From: Gemmata massiliana
GTDB taxonomy: Bacteria; Planctomycetota; Planctomycetia; Gemmatales; Gemmataceae
Direction: 5' to 3'
NCBI RefSeq assembly: GCF_901538265.1
Contig: NZ_LR593886.1
Coordinates: 6,717,738 to 6,781,737 of the forward strand
Length of the DNA: 64,000 nt
A model generated the notes under the pieces. That model was not told the DNA's origin. It made no database searches and was given only the letters and a program-made list of their open reading frames with translations. Of the stretch, positions 57,579 through 63,301 are shown in pieces (position 1 is the stretch's first letter; each line of letters starts with the position of its first letter). Made by a program: the position numbers and the translations under genes.

Positions 57579-58403
57579 TTACGGGTTCGTTGCCGTCACC
57601 CCCGGCGGCAGTTGCGGGATCGGAATGCGGTTCAGCGCGTCGACCACGGCTCGGCGGACGTCGGGATCGGGGTCGGAACGCAGCGCGTCGATGTCCGCGA
57701 CCGCGATCGAGGCAGGCGCCCCGAGCCGACCGAGCGCGCGGACCGCGAGCAGGCGGTAGTTCGCGTCCGGGTCGCGCAGGTCGACGGCGATCGCCCGCAC
57801 GAACGCCTCGGTCGGCTTCGCGTTCGGCGTCACGCGGTTTATCGCGTTGATCGCCCCGCGGCGCACGTCCGCGTCGGCGTCCCCGAGCGCGATCGCGAGA
57901 AATGGGGCCGCGTTGCGTGCAACCGGGCCGAGGTCCGAGAGGGCCTTGGTCGCGCGCACCCGCGAACTCGGGTCGCGGCTGAGCAACTGCCGGGCGAGCG
58001 CGTCAATTTCCTGTGAGTCCGAAGAATTCAGGATCGCGTCCCGCGACTGCTTCAGCGCGAGGTCGAGGTCGATGGTGCGCCCCGCGAGCCGCGTGAACGC
58101 GGGGAGCGCCGCCTTCGCGGGCGCACCGAGTTGTCCCAGCGCTTCGACGATCGCCTCCTGGAGCGGCTCCTGCTCCGTCGGACGCAGGCGCTCGATAACG
58201 GCGATCAGGTCGCCGGCGGCCGCGCCCGCGTTCGGGCCGATCTTGCCGATCATGTTCGCGGCCTCGACCCGCGCCCACAACGATTGCCGCGGGTCGCGCA
58301 CGATCGCGCCGAGTTTTTTCGCGAAGGCGTCGTCGGCCTCGTCCGCGCGCCCCGCGGCGACCGGGAGCGTGAGGAGCGCCACGAGAACCAGTCCACAGCG
58401 CAT
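57579..58403 (-). CDS. Exported HEAT-repeat protein
   Basis: 274 residues from ATG 58403. A signal peptide (MRCGLVLVALLTLPVAAGRADE) is followed by about six HEAT/PBS-lyase-type repeats with the pattern DPDxxVRxxAxxALxxLG: DPSSRVRATKALSDLGPVA, DADADVRRGAINAINRV, DPDANYRLLAVRALGRLG, DPDPDVRRAVVDALNRI. The role is probably periplasmic scaffolding. It is the only minus-strand gene within the plus-strand flagellar run after fliP, lying between fliA and motA, so it splits the region into two transcription units. No link to motility is shown. Confidence 0.85.
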   Translation of the reverse strand: MRCGLVLVALLTLPVAAGRADEADDAFAKKLGAIVRDPRQSLWARVEAANMIGKIGPNAGAAAGDLIAVIERLRPTEQEPLQEAIVEALGQLGAPAKAALPAFTRLAGRTIDLDLALKQSRDAILNSSDSQEIDALARQLLSRDPSSRVRATKALSDLGPVARNAAPFLAIALGDADADVRRGAINAINRVTPNAKPTEAFVRAIAVDLRDPDANYRLLAVRALGRLGAPASIAVADIDALRSDPDPDVRRAVVDALNRIPIPQLPPGVTATNP

Positions 58404-58618
58404 AGCGAACCCCCGACAGGTACGGAACTTACTCTGCTCATCGACCCCGCACCCCCGGGGACTTCGGACCCACCCGAGCGCGCACGCGCCCGGCGCGAAA
58501 ATTGACACAGTTCACTCCGCACGACCATCTTTTCTCGCGCAACGGCAAAAATCGGCACGGACGTTCGATTTTGTTCAATACTCGGTTTGTAAACCTACCC
58601 CCTAACTAACGGTGACCG

Positions 58619-59464
58619 GTGGTCGTAATCGTTGGCGCAGTGATCGTGCTCGTTTCCGTCCTCGTCGGGTTCTCGATGGCGGGCGGGAAAGTGGCCGCAC
58701 TCATCCACCTTTCCGAGTTCGTCACGATCGGCGGTGCCTCGTTCGGCGCGCTAATCCTGATGTCGCCCGTGAAGGTCATTAAAGACCTGGTCCGGGGCGT
58801 CCTACAAACGATCAAGGGTTCGAGCTTCGGCAAGGCCGCGTGCGTCGACCTGCTCAAGCTCCAGTACGCCCTCGCGCGTCTTGTGCGCCAGGAAGGGCTG
58901 CTGGCGCTCGACACGCACGTCACGAACCCGGACTCCAGCGCGCTGCTGCGCGAGTACCCCCGGGTGAACGGTAACCACCACGCTCGCGCGTTCCTGTGCG
59001 ACTCGCTCGCCATGATCCTCGACGGCACCGTGGAGAGCGCGCAACTGAGCGAGTGGCTCGAAGAAGAAATTTCGGTGATCGAGCGCGAGCACCACGCGGC
59101 CTCGGACGCCCTGGCGAAGAGCGCGGACGCGCTCCCCGGGTTCGGGATCGTGGCCGCGGTGCTCGGGATCGTCGTGACGATGCAGTCGATCGGCGGCCCG
59201 GTTGACGAGATCGGGTACAAGGTCGGTGCCGCACTCGTCGGTACGTTCCTCGGGATTCTGGCGGCCTACGGCTTCGTCGCTCCGCTCGCGGCGCGTATGC
59301 AGTCCCTCGGGGACCAGGAGATCCTGTTCTTCCGGGCGATGGCTGTGGGCGTGATCGCGATGAACGACGGGGCCAGCCCGAAGGACGTGGTCACCCGCGC
59401 CCGCCGCATAATCTCGACCGACTGCCGGCCCAACCAGGCAGAACTCAAAGACATGTTCGGCTAA
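58619..59464 (+). CDS. motA: Flagellar stator protein MotA
   Basis: 281 residues, GTG start at 58619. Four membrane helices: about 2-20, 32-50, 176-195 and 205-228. The stator proline lies in ALPGFGIVAAVLGIVVTMQ, and the cytoplasmic loop has the EGLLALDTHVTNP motif and a charged helix. The C-terminal LRRxx-like AARMQSLGDQEILFFRAMAVG and RRIISTDCRPN are usual. It forms the ion channel of the stator with the next gene. The upstream 215 bases are divergent from the HEAT gene and probably contain its promoter. Confidence 0.94.
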   Translation: MVVIVGAVIVLVSVLVGFSMAGGKVAALIHLSEFVTIGGASFGALILMSPVKVIKDLVRGVLQTIKGSSFGKAACVDLLKLQYALARLVRQEGLLALDTHVTNPDSSALLREYPRVNGNHHARAFLCDSLAMILDGTVESAQLSEWLEEEISVIEREHHAASDALAKSADALPGFGIVAAVLGIVVTMQSIGGPVDEIGYKVGAALVGTFLGILAAYGFVAPLAARMQSLGDQEILFFRAMAVGVIAMNDGASPKDVVTRARRIISTDCRPNQAELKDMFG

Positions 59465-59526
59465 CCGTCGGCGGTTTCGGTTCCGAATCCAACACCAGTT
59501 CCCGGCCCGGCCGGGTGGAGTGAATC

Positions 59527-60081
59527 GTGGCAAAGGGCGGCGGCGGTTCGTGGAAAGTGGCCTACGCGGACTTCGTAACCGCGATGATGGCGTTCTTCCT
59601 CGTGATGTGGATCGGGGCGCAGGACGTGAAGGTGCGCCAGTCGGTCGCGAACTACTTCGTCGACCCGTCCGGGGTGAGCAAGCGCCCCACGAACGCGGGC
59701 GCGGTCCTCGACGCACCGGTCTCCGGCCCGGTGCCGGAGAACGCGAAGGTAGAGGGCGGGCGCGGGGCGCGGGCGCCGGGCGGCGACACCCCCAGTCCGA
59801 GTACGGCGGCGGTCCTTAACTGGATCAAGTCCAACGACAAGCAGTTCCAGCGCTGGAAGGCCGAGGCCCAGCGGTGCCGCGAGTCGGCGGCGGTCCAAAA
59901 GGCCGTGAACCAGACGCAGACGCCCGAGGAGGTCGCGAGCAACCAGTTGACCAGCCTGCTCTCGACCGAGGTGGCCGGGGGCATCCCGAAGGACACGCCG
60001 GACGTTTACAAGGATCTGTTGTTCGGCTCGTTCAAGGAGGTAAACTGGAAACAGGTCGCCGAGGTTCTCCTCACGGAGTGA
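59527..60081 (+). CDS. motB: MotB-like stator protein lacking the peptidoglycan-binding domain
   Basis: 184 residues. The N-terminus is textbook MotB: GGSWKVAYADFVTAMMAFFL, with Asp15 in the position of the essential proton-carrying Asp32 of E. coli, and one membrane helix (about 13-32). After a Pro/Gly/Ala-rich linker (about 60-95) the protein ends with a short helical stretch, and the OmpA-like C-terminal domain (HTD-type motifs, about 120-150 residues) is missing. No frame carrying that domain is visible in the 88 bases before the next gene. It starts 62 bases after motA. The stator may be anchored by another protein or be a regulatory or divergent version. Confidence 0.85.
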   Translation: MAKGGGGSWKVAYADFVTAMMAFFLVMWIGAQDVKVRQSVANYFVDPSGVSKRPTNAGAVLDAPVSGPVPENAKVEGGRGARAPGGDTPSPSTAAVLNWIKSNDKQFQRWKAEAQRCRESAAVQKAVNQTQTPEEVASNQLTSLLSTEVAGGIPKDTPDVYKDLLFGSFKEVNWKQVAEVLLTE

Positions 60082-60169
60082 CCCGGACCGGCCCCGCCGA
60101 ACGAACTTGTTCCCGTAAGTCGTTCGCGGTATAGCCGCCCAGATAACGATCCCCGGTGAGGGCAGGCTC

Positions 60170-60787
60170 ATGCGATTGATGTACCGCGTGCTCGTGCTCG
60201 GCGCGTTCCTGGTCCCGTGCGTGGCGGCCGGCGTCACGGCACAACCCCCGTCGTCCGCGACGGAAAAGCTAAAGAGCGACACGAGCGCGCTCGCGGGAGA
60301 ACGAACGGCCGCCGAATCGACCACGACGGAGCGGGCCAAACTCCAGGCGGATTTGCGGCGATTGATCGACCGGCTCGAAAAGACCCCACCCGGCCCGGGA
60401 GTTGTGTCGCCCACCAGCCCCCCGGTCAGCCCGCCGAAGACAAAGGACAAGGATCCGGGTGCCGGCGGGGCTTCGGTTGATAAATTGCGGGCAGCAATGA
60501 ATTTAGTGCTGAATAACGAGATCGATGCGGCCCTGAACGCCTTCCGCCAGATCGATCTGCAATCGTTGTCGGCCGAGGATCGCTCCTTCGCCCGGTTCAT
60601 GACGGCCTCGTGCCTCCGGCGCCAGGGGCGAATGGCAGAAGCCCTGCCAATTTACCGTGAGGTCGGTGACAGCGGAGAGGACGCTTTTATTGCCTCATCT
60701 GCAGTTTCACAGGTAGCCCTTATACGAACAGGTGAAGAACTTCAGGCCCAACTCACACAACTTCGCGCACGGCCGAAATCTCGCTGA
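60170..60787 (+). CDS. Exported coiled-coil protein of unknown function in the flagellar run
   Basis: 205 residues. A signal peptide (MRLMYRVLVLGAFLVPCVAAGVTA) precedes a short coiled coil (about 32-70, TERAKLQADLRRLIDRLEK), a Pro/Lys/Asp-rich linker, and a C-terminal TPR-like helical region (LRAAMNLVLNNEIDAALNAFRQIDLQSLSAEDRSFARFMTASCLRRQGRMAEALPIY). It could be a periplasmic partner of the stator, given the missing anchor domain of the upstream MotB-like protein, but that is only context. No family was recognised. Confidence 0.7.
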   Translation: MRLMYRVLVLGAFLVPCVAAGVTAQPPSSATEKLKSDTSALAGERTAAESTTTERAKLQADLRRLIDRLEKTPPGPGVVSPTSPPVSPPKTKDKDPGAGGASVDKLRAAMNLVLNNEIDAALNAFRQIDLQSLSAEDRSFARFMTASCLRRQGRMAEALPIYREVGDSGEDAFIASSAVSQVALIRTGEELQAQLTQLRARPKSR

Positions 60788-60869
60788 TTATCGGTCGGTT
60801 GCGCCCTTTTTTCCATTTCTTCCCCCCTTCCCCCCGGCTCACGTGCTACAGGAATTGCGAGCAACCGTG

Positions 60870-61178
60870 ATGACCGCGACTGAGCTGGTAGCGGAAATTC
60901 GCGACCGGTTCAAAATCGGTGACGCGGCCCTCGAACTGACCGGCCGACTCGTATCCCTCGTAGCCACAATCGAACTGGACGTTGCCCGAGCAGGAACTCT
61001 GCCCCCGGACCTGGGGGCGGATATTACCCGTCTGCTCGTGCAAGTCCAGGAAACGACAAAGATTGGCGGCCACTGGTTGGACGCGGTGGCGGACGGCCCG
61101 GAACTTGCAAACCTCCACATGCGGATGCGCGTACAGAAAATGTACGGCCTGCTAGTGCGAGAGGATTCATCCCCCTAA
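60870..61178 (+). CDS. Small helical protein, possible FlgN/FliT-type chaperone
   Basis: 102 residues from ATG 60870; an in-frame GTG at 60843 would add nine. The chain is all-helical and acidic (TELVAEIRDRFKIGDAALELTGRL, GADITRLLVQVQETTKIGGHWLDAV, ELANLHMRMRVQKMYGLLV). Size and position just before fliK-flgD-flgE suit an export chaperone, but I see no decisive motif. It ends 15 bases before fliK. Confidence 0.6.
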   Translation: MTATELVAEIRDRFKIGDAALELTGRLVSLVATIELDVARAGTLPPDLGADITRLLVQVQETTKIGGHWLDAVADGPELANLHMRMRVQKMYGLLVREDSSP

Positions 61179-61193
61179 GACGAGCAACTACAC

Positions 61194-62900
61194 ATGGCGT
61201 CAACCGTCGCAAGTGTGGCTACCACGTTCCCGCTCCTTCAATCGAGCGCCACCACGACAACGACATCGACTCGCCAAACAACGTCAACGTCCCGTACCGA
61301 CTCTTCCGACCCGTTCCAAACCGTTCTCTCACAAGCCACGAACGACGCCCGCGCCGCACAAGCAGCGAGCGACGCAGCTCAGGCCGCAGTGGACACCCGA
61401 GCCGCCAACGACGCGGCTGCACGGGAACTCGCCGACCAACAGGCCGCCGATAAGGACGCAGCCGATAACGCCGCCGACGAAGCCGCGGCCGCACAACTCG
61501 CCGCCACGCTCGCTGCCGCCACTCAACTCGCCCCGACCAACACAACACCCGAAACGACACTCACCGGAACCACCGGGGTCGGCCCCGGCCAAGTACCGGC
61601 TGGTGCCCTAGGCGGGACGGCGGGGGAACTCGCACCCCCGAACGTTCCCACACAAAACAACCCGCTGTTCCGCCAGTTTGTTTCCGAGGCCGCAGCCCAA
61701 AACAACACGAGCGCCCCGGCGCCGGTCACCCAGGACACGAACACGAACCTGAACGCGAACACCGCGGCGACCACGCTTCCGACGCCCGCCGTTCCGCAAA
61801 CGACCACTACAACGACCACGACGACTCCCGCGATTACGACCCAAGCGGAGACACCCGCGGCAACCAACCTGGCCAGTACGATCGATTCCGTGCAACCCGC
61901 GCAGAAGCAGATCGTGGTTGCCCAGACGCCGCTCGTCACCGGGCAGAACCAACTCGGAGCCGGTGCGACCCAGCTCCCGACGCCGGTCGTGGCCCCGCAA
62001 GCCCCGGTCGAAACCACCGCACTGCCCAGCGTGCAGGTCGGTAGCCGCCCCACCACCGCAGGCGAGCAGTTCGCTCAGATCGCGTCGGCCGCGTCGACGA
62101 TCACCCAAAACAAGGCACCGGCCACAACCGGGACCGAGACCAGCCCGTTCGCCACGCTCCTGGCCTCGACAACGGTTCCGACGGCCATTCCCGCTCCCGC
62201 GCCAACGACCACGGCGCCCGCAGCGGTCAGCGTTCCTGCAACGAACGCCCTCGCGACCAACGCACTCACGGCGACCGCTCTCACGAGCCCCACGGAAATC
62301 AACGCGCCCTCTGTGACCCGTGCCCCCACACAACTGGCGGAGATCGGCGAACTGGCCCGAAAAGAGAGCAACTTCGGGGACGCGACCGGCACCACTGGTG
62401 CGACCGCGGCGGGCACCTTCGCTCAGACCCTGACGACGCAATCCCCCACTGCTCCGCAACCGACCGCGACCGTCCAGGCCCCCACGCCGACCGCACAGGT
62501 CGCGGACGGGATCATTACCCACGCTCACGTAATCGCCCGCGGCGGGAAGACGGAGTTCCAGATCCGCCTCGACCCGCCCGAGCTCGGCACGGTCCGCATC
62601 CGCTTGACGTCCGATGGTGACGGAATTAACGGACAAGTGGTGGTGGCGAGTGACTCCGTTCGCCGAATGATTGAAAGTCAGTTGCCCGAGCTGCGGCAGC
62701 GTCTTGAAGCAACGGGTGTGACGGTTCAGAACCTGAACATCGCAACGGACTCCGGAACCGGGGCCGGATCGGACGCCGGATCGCGAGCGTTCCGCTCGGA
62801 AGCCCCGGCCGACACCGCTCGGCAAACCCCGGTAGCAACCGGCGCTCGGCCCAGACCACCGACGGTCCGAACCCCCGGCGCCCTCGACGTAATGGCCTAA
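61194..62900 (+). CDS. fliK: Flagellar hook-length control protein FliK
   Basis: 568 residues. The first 440 are low-complexity, rich in Thr, Ala, Pro and Gln, as expected for a molecular ruler. The C-terminal domain (about 445-530) is the FliK switch domain: THAHVIARGGKTEFQIRLDPPELGTVRIRLTSDG, with the LDPPELG motif near residue 459, then SDSVRRMIESQLPELRQRLEATGVTVQNLNI. It binds FlhB to stop hook growth. A second FliK-like protein is encoded at 39982-41508. The adjacent flgD and flgE complete the hook module. Confidence 0.9.
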   Translation: MASTVASVATTFPLLQSSATTTTTSTRQTTSTSRTDSSDPFQTVLSQATNDARAAQAASDAAQAAVDTRAANDAAARELADQQAADKDAADNAADEAAAAQLAATLAAATQLAPTNTTPETTLTGTTGVGPGQVPAGALGGTAGELAPPNVPTQNNPLFRQFVSEAAAQNNTSAPAPVTQDTNTNLNANTAATTLPTPAVPQTTTTTTTTTPAITTQAETPAATNLASTIDSVQPAQKQIVVAQTPLVTGQNQLGAGATQLPTPVVAPQAPVETTALPSVQVGSRPTTAGEQFAQIASAASTITQNKAPATTGTETSPFATLLASTTVPTAIPAPAPTTTAPAAVSVPATNALATNALTATALTSPTEINAPSVTRAPTQLAEIGELARKESNFGDATGTTGATAAGTFAQTLTTQSPTAPQPTATVQAPTPTAQVADGIITHAHVIARGGKTEFQIRLDPPELGTVRIRLTSDGDGINGQVVVASDSVRRMIESQLPELRQRLEATGVTVQNLNIATDSGTGAGSDAGSRAFRSEAPADTARQTPVATGARPRPPTVRTPGALDVMA

Positions 62901-62941
62901 GCCCGATCCCTTAAACAAGTTAACGACAGGAGAACGTTACA

Positions 62942-63301
62942 ATGGCCACCAGCAGTCTCGCCGGCATCGGGCAGGACCAGTTCCTCCAACTGCTCATCGC
63001 ACAGCTCAAGAACCAGGACCCGCTGTCGCCGGTTGATAACAGCCAGTTCATCACCCAACTGGCCCAACTGAACACGGTTCAAGGTCTCCAAGATCTGAAT
63101 GCGAGCTTCTCACAGCAACTGAAACTGCAACAGCTCACCCAGGGAGCGGACCTGATCGGTAAGACGGTCGAGTACCTTCCGGCCGGTGCGACCGAGTTCA
63201 AGACCGGGAAGGTCACCTCGGTCGAAGCCCAAAACGGCAGCTTCGTGCTGCAAGTCGGGTCCGACTCCGTGGGCCTCGATCAGATCCAATCGGTCCGTTA
63301 A
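62942..63301 (+). CDS. flgD: Flagellar hook-capping protein FlgD (short form)
   Basis: 119 residues. Matches the FlgD N-terminal region: IGQDQFLQLLIAQLKNQDPLSPVDNSQFITQLAQLNTVQGL, then SQQLKLQQLTQGADLIGKTVEYL and a short C-terminal beta stretch. It lacks the tudor/Fn3-like domains of the 220-residue E. coli protein; short FlgD proteins occur in several phyla. CAGGAG lies upstream. It caps the growing hook so FlgE can polymerise. Confidence 0.9.
   Translation: MATSSLAGIGQDQFLQLLIAQLKNQDPLSPVDNSQFITQLAQLNTVQGLQDLNASFSQQLKLQQLTQGADLIGKTVEYLPAGATEFKTGKVTSVEAQNGSFVLQVGSDSVGLDQIQSVR

Follow-up and report, generated by a model that had tools for sequence, protein, structure and literature searches.

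In the present study, we analyzed a 64,000-nucleotide stretch of the Gemmata massiliana genome (contig NZ_LR593886.1, positions 6,717,738 to 6,781,737; hereafter, the window) and found that its short motB gene encodes a MotB with a channel helix and a plug, without an OmpA-type domain, and with a conserved C-terminal domain (C-domain), an anatomy of which we are nearly certain. The C-domain belongs to a DUF7249-like superfamily that is wider than the Pfam family DUF7249 (PF23907), as indicated by profile similarity in both directions and by the predicted fold. DUF7249/phrog_871 is a family of small proteins from phages and mobile genes. The flagellar stator itself is a known machine and is not new; the novelty is the swapped anchor, and this exchange and the origin of the new domain are what make the finding of interest.

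Anatomy of the short MotB and its DUF7249-like domain

The gene starts with a GTG codon that is preceded by GGAG, and the positions of its parts are given in Table 1. The Pfam model MotB_plug (PF13677) matched the protein at 54.2 bits (cut-off, 24) over profile positions 12-56 of 58, which places a plug after the channel helix, as in flagellar MotB. The alignments A2 and A3 contain 36 of the 39 intact short forms that we collected from planctomycete genomes. The ion-binding aspartate D15 (in AYADF) is invariant in all 36 rows of the short-MotB alignment, and residues 6-28 are mostly invariant. The linker is variable, with conservation limited to a few glycine and proline positions, and the last approximately 97 residues are conserved across the short MotBs. 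In a Pfam scan at E up to 0.1, the short MotB matched nothing besides MotB_plug, neither OmpA (PF00691) nor ExbD/TolR (PF02472), and PF00691 was also absent from three other short MotBs that were scanned.

An earlier note on this DNA, made from the sequence alone, described a MotB-like stator subunit with an intact channel helix and its aspartate, which ends at 184 residues without the OmpA anchor. The open reading frame (ORF), the PF13677 match, and the invariant D15 agree with the first of these statements, and the Pfam scan bears out the second. However, the description is only partly supported: OmpA is absent, but the gene is neither truncated nor frameshifted, and the C-terminus is a conserved DUF7249-like domain, which was missed at that time.

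Table 1. Coordinates of the short motB gene, its parts, and related features (window positions unless a locus or genome is named; pLDDT, predicted local distance difference test; TPR, tetratricopeptide repeat)
Feature	Position	Strand	Remarks
short motB	59527..60081	+	184 aa; only MotB of the genome; A1/A2 alignments
channel helix with ion-binding Asp (D15) and plug	59533..59664 (residues 3-46)	+	PF13677
linker	59665..59787 (residues 47-87)	+	Gly/Pro-rich, low-confidence; pLDDT 44-57 by blocks of ten
DUF7249-like five-helix domain where OmpA would sit	59788..60078 (residues 88-184)	+	profiles, hhalign, predicted helices
motA	58619..59464	+	281 aa; partner stator A subunit; TIGR03818 MotA1 (NCBIfam), 322.4 bits, cut-off 303.8
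coiled-coil/TPR protein	60170..60787	+	signal-like start (by eye); sub-threshold TPR_16, 20.5 bits; doubtful stator part
paired MotB-like genes	L088:6260-8434	-	
paired MotB-like genes	L087:6346-7700	-	
paired MotB-like genes	L089:2510-3256	-	
paired MotB-like genes	G028:C101:16787-17583		

The relation to DUF7249 was found with A3, the profile of the short-MotB C-domains, which in whole genomes detected stand-alone proteins besides short MotBs (E = 7.5e-23, 7.9e-19, 3.9e-18, 7.3e-16, and weaker). Most of these relatives carry the motif NGWxNYETW or a near variant; six of the seven that were scanned passed the Pfam cut-off for DUF7249, the seventh (L220) reaching 20.4 bits against 27, and phrog_871 was matched by all three that were scanned with it. 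The DUF7249 alignment A4, which was used for the viral search and for the profile-profile comparison, had itself been picked with A3, and the reverse test is therefore reciprocal and not wholly independent. A viral DUF7249 profile built from 80 viral proteins found with A4 scored all 36 short MotBs at 22.9-45.9 bits, each of them above the best control (9.6 bits among 3,600 shuffled and 36 reversed C-termini), and scored the MotB of the window at 30.3 bits (E = 1.4e-7). In the profile-profile comparison with hhalign, the MotB C-domain aligned with DUF7249 over 98 columns at a probability of 99.4.

The predicted structures are consistent with this relation. In the MotB C-domain, helices were predicted at residues 91-102, 104-125, 133-151, 159-170, and 174-183 (pLDDT by blocks, 83-89, with one at 69), and in a viral DUF7249 protein at residues 9-20, 22-40, 52-72, 80-90, and 94-103 with a short helix at 43-46, such that the five main helices follow the same order. 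Both domains span approximately 95 residues and share T93, V96, W99, W110, A114, A137, L141, P154, D163-L164-L165, E171-V172, W174, and A178 (MotB numbering); in contrast to the MotB C-domain, DUF7249 proteins stand alone, are presumably cytoplasmic, and keep NGWxNYETW. In fold searches of BFVD, the phage proteins A0A6J7XNE2 and A0A6J5MG11 ranked first and second for the MotB model and third and first for the viral DUF7249 model, with probabilities of 0.99-1.00 and E-values of 1e-3 to 3e-2 in both searches, neither of which passed E 0.001. A sequence search of the PDB gave chance-level matches only for the C-domain (best E, 0.17) and none for the full profile at E 0.01.

Several observations weigh against this relation or against the role that we propose for the domain below. 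Foldseek TM-scores between the full-length MotB and the phage proteins were low when normalized by query length (0.33-0.34), and the full-length model is weak (mean pLDDT, 66.8; predicted TM-score, 0.47), being good in the C-domain only. The Pfam DUF7249 model matched neither the MotB of the window (E up to 0.1) nor its genome, and DUF7249 was not among the 25 of 39 Pfam families listed for the 36 C-domains, nearly all of which were single-member matches. Of the signature NGWxNYETW, MotB retains the T alone, and the activity of DUF7249 may thus be lost in MotB, for which reason we name the domain DUF7249-like and not a member of the family. The stand-alone proteins of L183 and L185 start without an evident signal sequence, and stand-alone DUF7249 proteins are presumably cytoplasmic. 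A fold search of the PDB returned no convincing match (best Foldseek E, 1.1; best VIA-align Z, 4.9), so the fold suggests no ligand. Moreover, one genome with a short motB, G012, yielded no FliG match.

Regarding the family itself, 440 viral loci with DUF7249 were present among the stretches checked, and when phages were searched by tblastn with a single planctomycete DUF7249 protein as the query, only 2 records were returned. Four planctomycete genome loci (L184, L186, L220, and L221) encode DUF7249-type proteins fused to a second domain that ends like FWIITEADRS-T--LLPEEY, which we take to be of a kind met in mobile elements, and one genome, G044, has three DUF7249 copies.

Distribution of the short form and origin of the exchange

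The genome of G. massiliana (10.1 Mb, one contig) has a single MotB_plug match, the short MotB, and a second complete motB, for which the earlier note had left room, is not present. An OmpA-region profile was built from 14 long planctomycete MotBs and recovered all 14 of the sequences used to train it, a control that is not independent; the six frames of window positions 58001-63000 contained no match to this profile up to E = 10, in line with the previous statement that no frame in the following gap restores the domain. The probability that a frameshift or an assembly error conceals an OmpA domain is negligible because, in addition to this empty search, the identical architecture occurs in 29 Gemmatales genomes, including that of G. 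massiliana, and in 10 further genomes, a recurrence that reflects neither chance nor sequencing error. We accordingly rejected a hidden OmpA domain as well as a second motB.

OmpA-domain proteins encoded elsewhere, another possibility raised earlier, do occur in this genome. PF00691 matched two proteins above the cut-off, of 776 and 450 aa at 2.6 and 9.9 Mb (motB lies at 6.8 Mb), and a third far below it (15.3 bits); however, neither of the two stands beside stator genes, since the ORFs listed in approximately 3 kb around each included no motA or motB. Among 17 short-MotB genomes searched, G072 and G098, which are 97 and 93% complete and have a short MotB and FliG, were without any match to OmpA up to E = 0.001, and an OmpA anchor acting in trans is thus probably not general. 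On these grounds, this candidate was also rejected.

The short form recurs in other planctomycetes when the protein is aligned across them, both in Gemmatales and in another family (f4). In an order sample of 102 genomes, 36 had a MotB_plug match: 29 with an intact short form of 183-202 aa, one (G047) in which the gene is cut by a contig end and which is not counted among the 29, four with paired matches, and two (G030 and G101) with a match below the cut-off. The short forms of the 10 f4 genomes are 192-196 aa in length. In a class sample of 397 genomes, 222 had MotB_plug and 36 the short form with the C-domain (26 in Gemmatales and 10 in f4), each of the latter with exactly one MotB_plug match, whereas OmpA was present in all 25 of the long planctomycete MotBs that were scanned. 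When 391 genomes were drawn across the phylum, the C-domain was matched in 10, all of them within the class; G117 and G044 among these additionally encode separate relatives of the domain, and G159 has such a relative only. The best 80 of 589 MotB relatives were mostly from other phyla, and within these 80 loci, in one of which (L094) the gene is cut by a contig end, no DUF7249-like domain was found outside Planctomycetota, L093 alone having the domain.

Two side observations concern divergent cases. In a genome of a third family (G270, f6; L224:2717-3376, minus strand), which has FliG, a short motB is seemingly split between frames, through either an assembly error or the decay of a dying gene, and it was left out of the 36. 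Four Gemmatales genomes (G001, G028, G050, and G067) have two adjacent, differing MotB_plug matches instead of one. Five of these paired proteins, the full sequences of which were read, have lengths of 209-252 aa, and in L088 two come after a motA-like gene; Pfam OmpA was found in none of the five at E up to 0.1, and they may have degenerate OmpA domains or form a two-MotB stator. FliG is present in three of the four genomes.

A tree of MotA provides separate evidence on the origin of the exchange because MotA does not carry the DUF7249-like domain. It comprises 109 rows (from 119, after the removal of MotAs shorter than 250 aa and identical copies) and, of the 39 intact short forms, represents 35 by their partners; L027 and L030 are not included, no MotA was found for L024, and L081 is a fragment. 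The 35 partners form one clade (100/96) that was recovered in every one of 200 bootstrap trees. L095 is its nearest outside neighbor, followed by further MotAs of planctomycetes and Verrucomicrobia (L095, L054, L097, L091, and L045 being planctomycete), and the MotBs paired with these nearest MotAs carry OmpA in five of five cases tested (L095, L054, and L045, and L097 and L091 via their copies L037 and L041). These OmpA-carrying MotBs resemble the short MotB in their N-terminus (WKVAYADF) and in having the nearest MotA partners, but differ in their length of 233-313 aa and in the presence of PF00691. Most simply, therefore, an OmpA-type MotB lost OmpA and gained the DUF7249-like domain once, a reading that the tree allows and does not prove. 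A second tree, built from the domain (90 rows, 108 columns), is poorly resolved, and its bootstrap had not settled; in this tree, the MotB domains group as a single long-stemmed clade (100/100), and viral and planctomycete stand-alone proteins are mixed outside it. We infer the direction of transfer from the wide spread of DUF7249 in viruses; the domain tree does not show it.

Flagellar context and neighboring genes

The short MotB and MotA very probably form a working stator, judging from their sequences and gene context. motA lies directly upstream of the short motB in 23 of 23 loci. In the window, motAB is located downstream of flhB and flhA (Pfam FlhB and FHIPEP) and of a sigma-70-family gene, which by reading is fliA, and upstream of fliK and flgD (Pfam); FliG is encoded approximately 14 kb upstream of motB. 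Elsewhere, the genome encodes five other MotA/ExbB-type proteins. FliG was also found in 28 of the 29 Gemmatales genomes with an intact short form and in all 10 f4 genomes. The short MotB resembles the flagellar MotB of the E. coli/Salmonella kind ("FIT" in PMC12505986) in its channel helix with aspartate, its plug, its adjoining motA, and its status as the sole MotB in a genome with FliG; in contrast to that protein, which has an OmpA-type domain, it is shorter and has a DUF7249-like domain instead.

A non-flagellar role for the pair, in a TolQR/ExbBD-type transporter or a Zorya-type defense motor, is very improbable. The relatives of the C-domain, which are phage proteins and probably mobile planctomycete proteins, would fit such a role. 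ExbD/TolR-type B subunits also lack an OmpA domain (PMC12505986); unlike these subunits, the short MotB has a flagellar plug and partner and no PF02472 match. Against a non-flagellar role, MotA exceeds its flagellar equivalog cut-off, motAB stands between the sigma-70-family gene and fliK-flgD, and FliG co-occurs. The ZorB1 model reached only 13.5 bits against a cut-off of 400, and PADLOC gave no match.

The exported coiled-coil protein encoded next to motB, here the TPR protein, had been suggested as a separate anchor. It does look like a secreted protein of the coiled-coil/TPR kind, but adjoins motB in only 8 of 23 short-motB loci and elsewhere tracks fliK-flgD. In 5 of 10 further loci (G051, G044, G094, G037, and, in f4, G201), its homologue is found just upstream of fliK-flgD instead of next to motAB, from which it is separated in G037 by approximately 10 kb on one contig; the TPR-fliK-flgD order was not seen in the other five, among which L330 is a 3.8-kb contig. 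Searches with the TPR protein gave matches of E <=1e-10 in six of six Gemmatales genomes outside the genus of the window, and, among nine f4 genomes, a match of 9.8e-13 in one, of 2.0e-8 to 3.8e-4 in seven, and none in G117; the f4 matches may represent any TPR protein. It looks like a protein of the flagellar cluster that meets motB by chance in Gemmata-like genomes, and its variable position makes it a weak candidate for the anchor.

Periplasmic scaffold proteins, such as PflA/PflB and MotY, place stators in other phyla. By analogy, this TPR protein or a lineage-specific scaffold may hold the stator, with the DUF7249-like domain as an adaptor. The signal-like start noted by eye, the place of the TPR protein in the flagellar cluster of Gemmatales genomes, its matches throughout the six genomes outside the genus, and the G201 match upstream of fliK-flgD speak for such an arrangement. 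Nevertheless, we consider it unlikely in view of the few loci in which the gene adjoins motB, its association with fliK-flgD in others, the mostly weak matches in f4, and the two genomes in which OmpA-type helpers were not found.

Two other genes of this region were noted. A small ORF between the TPR gene and fliK (window positions 60858-61178, approximately 105 aa) has a relative in 8 loci; a slightly longer version had no Pfam match, and our guess from its position is a FlgN-like chaperone. A HEAT-repeat protein (window positions 57579-58508, minus strand) adjoins motA in 7 Gemmata-like loci, and the TPR-fliK-flgD block, on the opposite strand, in L325 and L326.

Proposed docking of the stator and its implications

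The near-invariance of the channel helix, together with the retained plug, leads us to expect that the short MotB is seated in MotA in the usual manner and that its C-terminus is periplasmic. In the explanation that we favor, it would be the B subunit of an ordinary flagellar proton stator in a Gemmatales planctomycete, and the MotA:MotB channel would still be 5:2, gated by the plug, and pushing FliG. The OmpA-type domain would have been replaced once, in an ancestor within the class Planctomycetia, by a helical domain of the DUF7249 kind, the putative source of which is a mobile-element or phage-type gene. The topology of MotB suggests that this domain is periplasmic, in the place of OmpA, where, paired in the MotB dimer, it may bind a fixed partner around the rod, such as a ring or envelope protein, or the wall via a new surface, and this docking would keep the stator from spinning with the rotor.

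The earlier note attributed the missing anchor to the unusual cell walls of planctomycetes. This explanation is weak because peptidoglycan sugars and diaminopimelic acid (DAP) were found in Gemmata obscuriglobus (PMC4432640), because the short form is confined to 36 of the 222 class genomes with MotB_plug, and because all 25 long planctomycete MotBs tested have OmpA. With peptidoglycan in a relative and OmpA gone from MotB, the usual ligand is there and its usual binder is missing; together with G072 and G098, which have no OmpA match, this favors docking by the new domain.

We consider it quite unlikely that the C-domain is not an anchor and instead stabilizes the MotB dimer or controls the plug, in a stator that is weakly held or losing its function. 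The DUF7249-like domain has no known ligand, and the C-domain evolves faster than the channel part in six of six comparisons; the linker in turn is faster than the C-domain in only three of the six. However, the ratio of nonsynonymous to synonymous substitution rates of the C-domain is below 0.35 wherever it was computable (0.09-0.33 in five of the six comparisons, the sixth being saturated), the C-domain is kept in two families with residues that are invariant in 36 rows, and FliG is retained. Furthermore, residues 111-270 of Salmonella MotB were reported to be essential for motility in a previous study (PMC9093738).

Taken as a whole, the explanation comprising a working stator, a one-time swap, and docking by the new domain appears fairly probable. 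The chances are about even that the DUF7249-like domain is an anchor that docks to a fixed structure other than the partner of OmpA, as its position in the protein suggests. A more specific proposal is somewhat more tentative, namely, that an ancestral planctomycete MotB acquired a phage-type domain on a single occasion, that this domain now docks the motor to a new, non-OmpA envelope partner, and that swimmers with DAP-containing walls have depended on it since.

A survey of 205 genomes from 27 phyla counted an expanded peptidoglycan-binding domain homologous to OmpA as a conserved feature of flagellar stators and named Planctomycetota as holders of both stator subtypes (PMC12505986). The short-MotB clade is an exception to this conserved trait. 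A description of a planctomycete MotB without OmpA was not found in the open-access literature searched, as judged by titles and the openings of abstracts, and nothing on DUF7249 was found there.

One branch of the planctomycetes may hold its flagellar motors in an undescribed way, and the short MotB offers a test of how motors are held in planctomycete envelopes. If the present explanation is correct, a clade-wide swap to an unrelated fold would show that the stator anchor is replaceable and would amount to a natural experiment on the requirements of docking, and DUF7249, an uncharacterized phage family, would gain a tie to a defined cellular machine.
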